From: Burkholderiales bacterium
GTDB lineage: Bacteria > Pseudomonadota > Gammaproteobacteria > Burkholderiales > Burkholderiaceae_C
DNA: 64,000 nucleotides
NCBI GenBank assembly: GCA_030604135.1
Contig: JAUVWL010000008.1
Coordinates: 1-64,000, forward strand
Direction: 5' to 3'
Shown here: piece by piece, positions 41,290 to 44,607 of the stretch
How positions within the stretch are numbered: position 1 is the first letter of the stretch
Layout: each line of letters starts with the position of its first letter
Notes under the pieces: generated by a model
What the model saw: only the letters and a program-made list of their open reading frames with translations
Told to the model about the DNA's origin: nothing
Database searches by the model: none
Translations under genes and position numbers: made by a program

Positions 41290-41467
41290 GGTGGATGGAG
41301 TGCGTTCAGCTCTTCGACCACCCGCTTAAGCAGTTTTTAGGGTTTGTTTAAGCGCAATTGAAGAACGGGCGAACGGCCCCGTTCCTAGACTTCCTGCGTG
41401 GACGGCGACGCATGGGGCGTTGCCGCCAGCGAAGCGAGGCGGACCGCGTCCGCCCAAGGAAGTCATC

Positions 41468-42208
41468 ATGCACATCGACCCAGCAGAAATGCACAAACTC
41501 GCCGAAGCGAGCAACCGCGCCGGCCGCGAAGATCTCTACGCCGGCATCCACAAGGCCTTGCGCGCCTACATGGCCGACACCCTGGTCGCCATCGGCCGCA
41601 CCGACCCGACCGATGCCGGGGAGGTCGTCGGCGCCGTCGATCGCGTCGTGGCCCTGCTGGCGCTGTGCGCCTCGCACGTGCACCACGAGAACGAGCACAT
41701 GCACCCGGCCATCGAGTCGCGTGCGCCCGGCGTCTCGGCTTCGGTGACCGGTGACCATGACGGACACCTGCACCACATCACCTGCCTGCGTGCGCAGGCC
41801 CAGGCGCTGCCCACCCTGTCCGAGGCGGAGCGCCCGGCCGCGCTGCACGTGCTCTACCTGGCCCTGGCCGGTTTCGTGGCCGAAAACTTCCAGCACATGC
41901 ACGTGGAGGAAACACGGCTGAACCAGGCGCTCTGGGCCCATTACGGCGACGACGAGCTGCGCGGGCTGCACGATGCCCTGGTGTCCACCATCGAGCCGCC
42001 CGAGATGATGCAGGTCATGCGCTGGATGCTGCCCAGCCTGAACGCGCCGCAGCGTCTGCAGGTGCTGCAGGGCATGCAGGCCTCGGCGCCTCCGCCGGCT
42101 TTCGAGGCCGTGCTCGACCTGGTGCAGCCGCTGCTGAGCCAGGGTGACTGGGCCAAGCTGATGGGCGGGCTCGGCCGTGGGCCGGTGCCCGGGCTGGTGC
42201 AGGCCTGA
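41468..42208 (+). CDS. Hemerythrin-domain protein
   Basis: A 246-residue helical protein. Histidine/glutamate clusters HVHHENEHMHPAIE, HDGHLHHI and FQHMHVEE fit the di-iron ligands of hemerythrin-like domains, which bind oxygen, NO or iron. The last 75 residues are an extra helical part. AAGGAAG precedes the ATG at 41468. An inverted repeat (AACGGG..CCCGTT) at about 41363-41383 may be regulatory. It converges with a pair of flavin split-barrel genes, suggesting a shared redox or NO theme. Confidence 0.85.
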   Translation: MHIDPAEMHKLAEASNRAGREDLYAGIHKALRAYMADTLVAIGRTDPTDAGEVVGAVDRVVALLALCASHVHHENEHMHPAIESRAPGVSASVTGDHDGHLHHITCLRAQAQALPTLSEAERPAALHVLYLALAGFVAENFQHMHVEETRLNQALWAHYGDDELRGLHDALVSTIEPPEMMQVMRWMLPSLNAPQRLQVLQGMQASAPPPAFEAVLDLVQPLLSQGDWAKLMGGLGRGPVPGLVQA

Positions 42209-42217
42209 GCGGCTGTT

Positions 42218-43570
42218 TCAGTCCGGCGTTGACACCAGCTCCAGCCGGGCGGCCACACAAAGCCGGAACCGGCCCCGCCCGCTTTTCTCTATCGACAGGC
42301 CCCGGCCCTGTTCCTGCAGGCGGCGCGAGAGCAGCAGCAAGCGCGCCTCCAGGTTGTCGCTCACATCGGGCAGGCCCAGGTCCGGGTCCAGCCGCAACTC
42401 GCGGTTGCTGTAATCGCAGCGACCCGAGCGCTGGTGCTCGCGCAGTAGCTTCCACAGAATGGCGCCGGCCACCCCTTTGATCAGGTAGTCGTCGTTCAGG
42501 AAGACGCTGTTGTTGGCCTCGTAGTGGCGCACCCGCAGCTGCGGGCCGCTTGACGACGGGGCCCCCGGCAGCACCGCCAGGCTTTCGCCGGGCGGCGATT
42601 CGGGTTCTACGCGCATCAGGTCAATGGCCGCCGCCAGCTGGCCACCCAGCATCACCAGCAGGTCCTCGTCCTCAAAGCCGAAGCGCAGGTCCTCGGGGCT
42701 TTCGACGAACAGCACGCCCAGCGTCCGGCCACAGGAAATCAGGGGCACGGCCAGCTGGCTGTGGGGCGCGGCCAGGCCCGGGTAGGGAATCTCGGTCGCC
42801 TCGACCGGCACCAGACCCCGGTCGGCCATGCCTTGCCGAACGGCGTGCCCGTACAGGTAGGCGCTGGCCATGTGCATGATGCGGACCGGCACCCGCTCAC
42901 GCGCCGCCACCCCGATGACACCATCGCCCAGTGCGATCTCCGAGCCGACACCGGAGGTGGCGTAACCACAGCTGGCCACGGTGTACAGACGCTGGGTGTT
43001 TGGGTCCAGGATCAGCACCATGGCATGGCCGATGCCCAGGTCATCCTGCAGGCAGCGCAGCAGCGTGTCCAGGGCGCTGTCCAGCGAGGCCGCCTGCGAC
43101 AGCCGCGAGCTGGTCCGGCGCAGGGCCCCCAGCATGCCGCAGCGGCTGGGCAGCGCCGGTTGGGTCGCGCCAGGCACCGGTTCGACTTCCAGCACCTCGT
43201 AGATGTCCGAGCCCTGCAGCACGAACACGTCGGCCATGCCGGCGTGCGAGGCGATGCCGGCCAGCAAGGCCTTCATGCGCTCAAAGACAGGACCGGCCGT
43301 TTCCGTGCGCAGGTAGCGCAGATGCAGCCGATAGAACTGCGCCGTCACCGGGTGCAGCAGCAGCACCGTGGCCCGCGGGTGGGCCAGGATATTCTGGCGT
43401 GTCTTGTTGAAGAACTGGAACGACACCGCCACATGTTGCGCGTCCACATAGAACACCTGCGACAGGTAGGCCACATTGGGTGTGCCGTCGGCAGCCACGG
43501 TGGCGATCATCGACGGCACCACACCCTCCAGGCAGGGCCGCACGTCGTCCAGCGAAATGCCGCTGTTCAT
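42218..43570 (-). CDS. Split-barrel flavin/PNPOx-like - GAF - winged-helix fusion protein
   Basis: A 450-residue protein with three parts. Residues 1-150 form a pyridoxamine-phosphate-oxidase-like split barrel (MIATVAADGTPNVAYLSQVFYV), which commonly binds FMN or F420. About 160-320 is a GAF domain (DTLLRCLQDDLGIGHAMVL to LGVLFVES). From about 345 the sequence ends in SDNLEARLLLLSRRLQEQG and IEKSGRGRFRL, resembling an OmpR-type winged helix. It may be a one-component redox- or ligand-responsive regulator. ATGA overlap with the upstream split-barrel gene couples the two. Confidence 0.75.
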   Translation of the reverse strand: MNSGISLDDVRPCLEGVVPSMIATVAADGTPNVAYLSQVFYVDAQHVAVSFQFFNKTRQNILAHPRATVLLLHPVTAQFYRLHLRYLRTETAGPVFERMKALLAGIASHAGMADVFVLQGSDIYEVLEVEPVPGATQPALPSRCGMLGALRRTSSRLSQAASLDSALDTLLRCLQDDLGIGHAMVLILDPNTQRLYTVASCGYATSGVGSEIALGDGVIGVAARERVPVRIMHMASAYLYGHAVRQGMADRGLVPVEATEIPYPGLAAPHSQLAVPLISCGRTLGVLFVESPEDLRFGFEDEDLLVMLGGQLAAAIDLMRVEPESPPGESLAVLPGAPSSSGPQLRVRHYEANNSVFLNDDYLIKGVAGAILWKLLREHQRSGRCDYSNRELRLDPDLGLPDVSDNLEARLLLLSRRLQEQGRGLSIEKSGRGRFRLCVAARLELVSTPD

Positions 43571-44064
43571 GCGCCTCCCAGGCGCTGGCCAGCCCTGGGG
43601 CCGGGTGTCTGGTCATAGGCCTGGCCCGGCGTGAATTCGATCGCGCTGACGTCCTCGATCCGGTGCGCCAGCATCGCCGCCGCGAAGTCGGCGCCGAAGC
43701 CGACCCGGGCCAGTTCGCCCTGCATGGCCTGCAGGTAGCGCTGCAGGCCGGACGCGTCGTCCGCGGTGGCCTCGCGCACGCGCGCCCGATCCGACTTGAC
43801 CTGCACCGAACGGTGGCTGTGCGGCTCGCTGAAGACCACCGCCACCCGGCCAGAACGCGCCACATCCTGCAACAGGCGAGCCGACTGCTGCCGGCTCAGA
43901 AACACGGTGATGCGCTGGCCATCGGCCGAGACCTCGCTGCCCACCGCCCGCATCAGGCTGGGTGACAGATCGACGCCGCTGGACGAGACGATCACAGACA
44001 CCCCGCGCCTCATCATGGCCAGTAGGTCCTGATCCAGCAGCGGGGCGGAAGCTTCGGTGTTCAC
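43567..44064 (-). CDS. Pyridoxamine 5'-phosphate oxidase-like split-barrel protein
   Basis: A 165-residue single-domain protein with the split-barrel flavin-binding fold (GVSVIVSSSGVDLSPSLMRAVGSEV, then ITVFLSRQQSARLLQDVARSGRVAVVFSEP). The fold is shared by pyridoxamine oxidases, heme-degrading and F420-binding proteins, so the activity is open. It is translationally coupled to the larger split barrel-GAF-winged helix gene, so the two may form a complex or a sensor pair. Confidence 0.78.
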   Translation of the reverse strand: MNTEASAPLLDQDLLAMMRRGVSVIVSSSGVDLSPSLMRAVGSEVSADGQRITVFLSRQQSARLLQDVARSGRVAVVFSEPHSHRSVQVKSDRARVREATADDASGLQRYLQAMQGELARVGFGADFAAAMLAHRIEDVSAIEFTPGQAYDQTPGPRAGQRLGGA

Positions 44065-44100
44065 GGGAAAGGTGACGGGCCCATGAGCACCGGATGATAG

Positions 44101-44607
44101 TCAGGCCCCAGCCACCCGACCAGCCCCCGCCGCCTGGGTCACCGACGGGTCGGTGTCCACCAGCTCCAGCGGATGGCGTTGCCCCGCCAGGTGGTCCTCG
44201 ATGCAGCGCAGCACCAGCGGGCTGCGGTGCCGGTCGGTGCTGGCCCGGACCTCGTCCGGCGTCATCCACAGTGTGCGCACGATGCCCTCGTCCAGCGGGC
44301 GGTCCGGGTCGAAGGTGCCCAGTTCGCCACAGAACGCAAAGCGCAGGTAGGTGATGTCCTCACCGGTGGCCGGTCGCTGGAAACGCGACAGGTAGACGCC
44401 GACCAGCGCGGTGGGTGTGAACCGATGGGCCGTCTCTTCCAGTGCCTCGCGGGCCACCGCCTGCTGCGGGCTCTCCCCCGGGTCCAGGTGTCCGGCCGGG
44501 TTGTTCAGCCGCAGACCCTCGGGCGTGTGCTCCTCCACCAGCAGATAGCGGCCTTCGCGTTCGACGATGGCCGCCACGGTGACACTGGGTTTCCAACGGG
44601 TGTTCAT
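44101..44607 (-). CDS. Nudix hydrolase (NudJ-like phosphatase)
   Basis: A 168-residue Nudix protein. The Nudix box GHLDPGESPQQAVAREALEETAH keeps the metal-binding RE..EE but has Ala where the last Gly of the consensus lies. The sequence around it (NTRWKPSVTVAAIVEREGRYLLVEE, LRLNNPAGH) resembles NudJ, which hydrolyses thiamine pyrophosphate and nucleoside phosphates. ATG 44607 is chosen by homology; the ORF-track start is far upstream. It is divergent from the unknown exported protein. Confidence 0.87.
   Translation of the reverse strand: MNTRWKPSVTVAAIVEREGRYLLVEEHTPEGLRLNNPAGHLDPGESPQQAVAREALEETAHRFTPTALVGVYLSRFQRPATGEDITYLRFAFCGELGTFDPDRPLDEGIVRTLWMTPDEVRASTDRHRSPLVLRCIEDHLAGQRHPLELVDTDPSVTQAAGAGRVAGA

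Follow-up and report, generated by a model that had tools for sequence, protein, structure and literature searches.

The window analysed here is a 64,000-nucleotide stretch of a Burkholderiales bacterium genome (contig JAUVWL010000008.1, positions 1 to 64,000), and the locus of interest within it comprises three genes, all of which were confirmed as real open reading frames. The hemerythrin-domain protein P0003 (246 residues; 41468..42208, forward strand) is encoded by the probable target gene. The proposed regulator P0001 (450 residues; 42218..43570, reverse strand) combines a split barrel, a GAF domain and a winged helix, and its split-barrel partner P0002 (165 residues, GTG start; 43567..44064) is encoded on the same strand. 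P0002 lies 5' of P0001 and the two frames overlap by 4 bp (ATGA) in a two-gene unit, in agreement with an earlier sequence-only reading of this DNA in which the two proteins were translated together. That reading also placed a hemerythrin gene facing P0001, and the two genes are indeed convergent, tail to tail and 9 bp apart. P0003 passes the Pfam Hemerythrin model (31.8 bits, cut-off 25.3), and seven residues are invariant in 15 orthologues (H28, H70, E74, H97, H100, H143 and E147), so that the protein carries both an HHE domain and the conserved His/Glu set. Hemerythrin-type proteins of COG3945 have been proposed to serve as an oxygen store or as protection in betaproteobacterial aromatic metabolism (PMC6449761).

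Upstream of P0002 there is a weak -10-like TATCAT (44094..44099, reverse strand), and close relatives have a sigma70-like promoter of the form TTGGCN-17-TATNAT at this place. The -35 region is poor in the window, which makes co-transcription of P0002-P0001 with the gene further upstream possible. This is a NUDIX-like gene on the same strand (44101-44606), 36 bp upstream of P0002, and it is found likewise in some relatives; in Acidovorax an ABC-2 transporter gene takes its place and overlaps there. Autoregulation was rejected, as the repeats described below for the hemerythrin promoter are absent upstream of P0002 in the window and in relatives; the regulator's own promoter, which the sequence-only reading had put forward as a binding target, shows none.

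P0002 stands directly upstream of P0001 in every one of the 49 loci that were examined, a range that reaches from Comamonadaceae to Nitrospira and includes Nitrospira moscoviensis. This set comprises 24 loci from a public genome scan, 12 from the same genus and 1 more, 4 from other families of the class and 8 from elsewhere in the phylum, and it documents the neighbourhood conservation on which the sequence-only reading had staked its proposal. The P0001 frame is broken in three loci, within the linker in L018 and L020 and at 8832-10183 in L121, by sequencing error or decay. The position of the hemerythrin gene varies. It converges on the pair in L121 and in loci of the Comamonadaceae type, is divergent from it in L119 and L125, and lies no more than a few kb away in L118 and in Leeia (L017); the family model did not detect it in L021, L023, L044-L047, L120 and L122-L124. 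Among 36 genomes of the same genus, P0001 and a close hemerythrin homologue occur in the same 16 and neither occurs in the other 20 (Fisher 1.4e-10, a value inflated by kinship since same-genus counts are not independent).

Domains and predicted folds of P0001 and P0002

Two of the domains that had been read from the P0001 sequence, the split barrel and the GAF domain, score above their Pfam cut-offs. The N-terminal PNPOx-like split barrel (residues ~1-133; 43172..43570, reverse strand) matches PNPOx_N (PF01243) at residues 10-82 with 31.9 bits (cut-off 28.1). The GAF domain (residues 160-317; 42620..43093, reverse strand) matches PF13185 (GAF_2) with 50 bits (E 4.4e-13) and PF01590 with 40.7 bits, above the curated cut-off. 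Its closest solved relative is the GAF domain of PtsP (3ci6). None of the GAF columns that are invariant across 24 sequences is a Cys or His, which suggests that a heme-binding GAF is less likely. Pfam scans of P0001 detected neither a receiver domain with its phosphorylation site nor an AAA+ domain.

The remaining part of P0001 (residues ~325-450) had no convincing match in Pfam, NCBIfam or PDB sequences. An AlphaFold2 model built from 24 sequences (pLDDT 89, pTM 0.83) predicts a winged helix at residues ~345-445 (42236..42538, reverse strand), in the order strand-strand-strand-helix-strand-helix-helix-strand-strand-strand, which is the OmpR layout of an N-terminal sheet, three helices and a C-terminal wing. 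The best PDB matches of the model in Foldseek are the DNA-binding domains of SaeR, BaeR and AdeR, with probabilities of 0.96-0.99 and E-values of only 0.02-0.12. Pfam scans of 24 members of the P0001 family detected no similarity to Trans_reg_C (PF00486), phmmer and hmmsearch against the PDB offered no sequence route to the OmpR family, and hhalign found no similarity between this domain and 14 genuine Trans_reg_C domains from the same genome. As modelled, the C-terminal domain is OmpR-like by its predicted fold and is not a sequence member of PF00486. The OmpR-like winged helix of the sequence-only reading, which had made its case depend on this part folding so, is upheld at the level of predicted fold but not at that of sequence similarity, which is undetectable.

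P0002 has no Pfam match. Its AlphaFold2 model, from 20 sequences, is a split barrel (pLDDT 92, pTM 0.87), and Foldseek relates it to HupZ, Rv1155, Rv2074, MSMEG_6526 and other split barrels that bind FMN, F420 or heme, which confirms it as the second split-barrel protein of the pair. It is also homologous to the N-terminus of P0001 (hhalign E 1.1e-6), and this homology suggests that the two barrels pair. F420 was rejected as an unlikely cofactor because CofD was not found in the bacterium's own genome, and FMN or heme is probably the likelier one.

Direct repeats in the hemerythrin promoter and elsewhere

The hemerythrin promoter holds a feature that had not been foreseen by the sequence-only reading, namely a TTARS core that occurs four times in direct orientation, in steps of exactly 11 bp (41326..41363, forward strand): TTAAG at 41326, TTAGG at 41337, TTAAG at 41348 and TGAAG at 41359. 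They are followed, 22 bp past the fourth repeat, by a -10-like TAGACT (41386..41391, forward strand), which would act as the -10 element. Repeats and TAGACT are both kept upstream of orthologous hemerythrin genes. In a fit that permitted 21-23 bp and small gaps between the repeats, TAnnnT follows the fourth repeat after 22 bp in the window and in L001, L007, L017, L019, L021, L044-L047, L120 and L121, and after 23 bp in Nitrospira. A -35-like hexamer is not recognisable in the hemerythrin promoter, where the last repeat occupies the place expected of a -35 element. Judged by their sequence conservation, the case for these repeats as a putative operator, to which P0001 would bind, is strong.

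A weight matrix trained solely on Comamonadaceae hemerythrin promoters was used to scan other, held-out loci of 13-18 kb. The best match in each of L021, L023 and L044-L047 is a site of the same kind (z against shuffled sequence 8.6, 5.6, 5.8, 9.2, 12.0 and 12.8, in that order), located before an NmrA-like gene in L021, a cupredoxin-like gene in L023 (Nitrospira) and a small c-type cytochrome gene in L044-L047. This small cytochrome, with a single CxxCH and the conserved sequence RGRY...CNDCHT...PWGTTYPANLRL, recurs as an alternative target gene in L044-L047 and in L107. Three of the eight loci later added from the phylum also score with the matrix (L120, z 4.6; L121, z 5.4; L125, z 4.5), and the result is not significant in the other five (L118, L119, L122, L123 and L124). 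Inspection by eye of L119, L122 and L123 revealed TTAGG/TTAGC pairs, one pair separated by 20-21 bp from the next, before a hemerythrin or an FMO-type monooxygenase gene, and a looser version of the repeats is present in alphaproteobacterial-type relatives, also before FMO genes. The gene for this FMO-type flavin monooxygenase is divergent from P0002-P0001 in L122 (5857-7374, reverse strand) and L123 (10157-11695, forward strand), and TTAGC/TTAGG pairs lie between them.

At the level of whole genomes, a three-repeat pattern with at most one mismatch matches the 3.98-Mb genome of this bacterium solely at the present site, in two overlapping registers; a reversed control pattern of the same laxity has 4 matches. 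Of 232 genomes of the class, 6 encode the winged helix, and 4 of these have the strict four-repeat pattern, in each case upstream of the cytochrome c gene; of the 226 that lack the domain, 9 have the pattern, about five of these being simple tandem repeats (Fisher 9e-6 without simple tandem repeats, 9e-5 with them). With the -10 element included, the pattern matched once in each of five regulator genomes; the remaining five that were searched had no match, and the reversed control had none.

In two genomes, the winged helix is found as an orphan, without barrel or GAF domain, beside a TetR-like gene; it is whole in G031 and truncated in G015. The copies, both on the forward strand after the TetR-like gene, lie at 1150-1491 of L106 and near 4270-4460 of L107, the latter truncated. 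TTAGC repeats at 11 bp are present in a promoter near the orphan domain, which in G015 precedes a cytochrome c gene.

In a relative from Planctomycetia (L025) the winged helix is replaced. Three genes in a row encode the small split barrel, a second split barrel that here is a protein of its own, and a GAF-AAA+-HTH activator of the sigma54 type, whose domains were read from its sequence; this case comes from one genome. The repeats are absent from this locus (matrix z -0.9), which makes it a natural negative control. The sequence CGGCCCG-CCGA-TTGCT, found upstream of the cytochrome c gene next to these, agrees with the -24/-12 consensus at 10 of 12 positions (chance about 0.007 per 105 bp). 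A sigma54 site as a general feature was rejected, since the 4 targets checked in Pseudomonadota and Nitrospira score only 7-8 of 12.

A proposed mechanism and its alternatives

Taken together, the predicted fold, the conservation of the pair, the co-occurrence with hemerythrin and the promoter repeats support the central proposal of the sequence-only reading, a one-component regulator that is linked to a second split barrel and has a hemerythrin for a neighbour. In the form that we favour and hold to be likely, P0001 activates the hemerythrin gene through the 11-bp repeats, with P0002 as an obligate partner. We infer the following steps. The winged helix of P0001 would bind the four repeats (41326-41363) as two tandem pairs. 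Because the fourth repeat occupies the place of a -35 element, for which no hexamer is recognisable, P0001 most likely acts as a class-II activator. The homologous split barrels of P0002 and P0001 probably form a joint sensor in which they pair or use a common cofactor (FMN or heme), and barrels and GAF domain together would set the DNA-binding activity in response to a signal. Since the targets found, hemerythrin, cytochrome c, cupredoxin-like protein and FMO, are oxygen or redox proteins, we infer that this signal is of a redox, oxygen or NO type.

P0001 might bind the repeats and yet repress the hemerythrin gene until the signal releases it, and the fourth repeat and the -10 element are near enough for steric blocking; we regard this as rather unlikely, because the array of repeats stops at the -35 position, with 22 bp left to the -10 element, and a -35 hexamer is not recognisable. 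An array placed in this way, in a promoter with no recognisable -35 hexamer, is the layout of activated OmpR/PhoB-type promoters.

The two other readings that were weighed deny P0001 the site altogether. With 14 OmpR-type domains in the same genome, and direct 11-bp repeats being usual for PhoB-like and other OmpR-type regulators (PMC9019756), another protein, for example a PhoB-like response regulator, could be the binder and P0001 a mere neighbour. This is very improbable, for the sites accompany P0001, or the orphan winged helix, in different families and phyla, are missing where another domain stands in for the winged helix, and number one per genome. P0002 and P0001 might instead form a flavin-dependent enzyme pair, PNPOx_N being both a binding fold and a family of enzymes. 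The C-terminal domain would then serve contacts between proteins, as winged helices can, and not DNA binding. We give this reading the least credence of all: direct repeats are conserved, an orphan copy of the winged helix lies beside repeats of this kind, and in L025 the domain is replaced by a GAF-AAA+-HTH activator of the sigma54 type, all of which speaks for a role in transcription.

P0001 resembles several known systems in part. With the OmpR/PhoB family (SaeR, BaeR and AdeR), whose DNA-binding domains recognise direct repeats in tandem at 10-11 bp, it shares the predicted DNA-binding fold and a putative direct-repeat operator of 11-bp period next to the -10 element; unlike those response regulators it lacks a receiver domain and has the split barrel and GAF domain as its sensors, and its sequence similarity to PF00486 is undetectable. 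The CtrA operator TTAA-N7-TTAA and the 11-bp pho box are comparable by operator. The NifA/NorR/FhlA-type activators likewise fuse a GAF sensor to a transcription output, and the L025 relative has an output of this type after its two split-barrel genes, whereas P0001 has no AAA+ domain, uses a winged-helix output and has target promoters without a -24/-12 element. PNPOx-like proteins, HupZ, HutZ, Rv1155, Rv2074 and MSMEG_6526 have the same fold as P0002 and the N-terminus of P0001; the latter differ from them in forming an obligate pair, one member of which is fused to a GAF and a DNA-binding domain.

The L025 locus further suggests, tentatively, that the sensing module, made up of two split barrels and the GAF domain, retains the same order of genes in different phyla, whereas the output is exchanged together with the promoter type. 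In Pseudomonadota and Nitrospirota the OmpR-fold winged helix would be paired with TTARS repeats of 11 bp, and in Planctomycetia the sigma54 AAA+ output with -24/-12 elements. On this tentative view there is one dedicated but interchangeable redox target, and the interchange of hemerythrin, cytochrome c, cupredoxin-like protein and FMO would imply one common redox signal. The locus may then be an instance in which an output domain and the type of promoter it acts on were swapped as one.

P0001 probably represents a family of transcription factors that was not found in any of the curated libraries consulted, and in the open-access literature we found no paper joining a split barrel, a GAF domain and a hemerythrin or winged helix in one regulator. 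As a putative operator, a promoter geometry and a probable target gene come with it, the whole circuit becomes testable. If the proposal is true, split-barrel flavin or heme proteins are linked to transcription, and a bacterial hemerythrin has a dedicated regulator.

Finally, the 5' leader of the hemerythrin mRNA contains a stem-loop (41405..41423, forward strand; stem 41405-41411 with 41417-41423). In 19 sequences of Comamonadaceae orthologues, including the window, six of its seven pairs show compensatory changes, 90.8% of the cells are paired, and covariation is 0.607 against 0.272 in shuffled sequences. This structure may protect the mRNA or act as a further control element.
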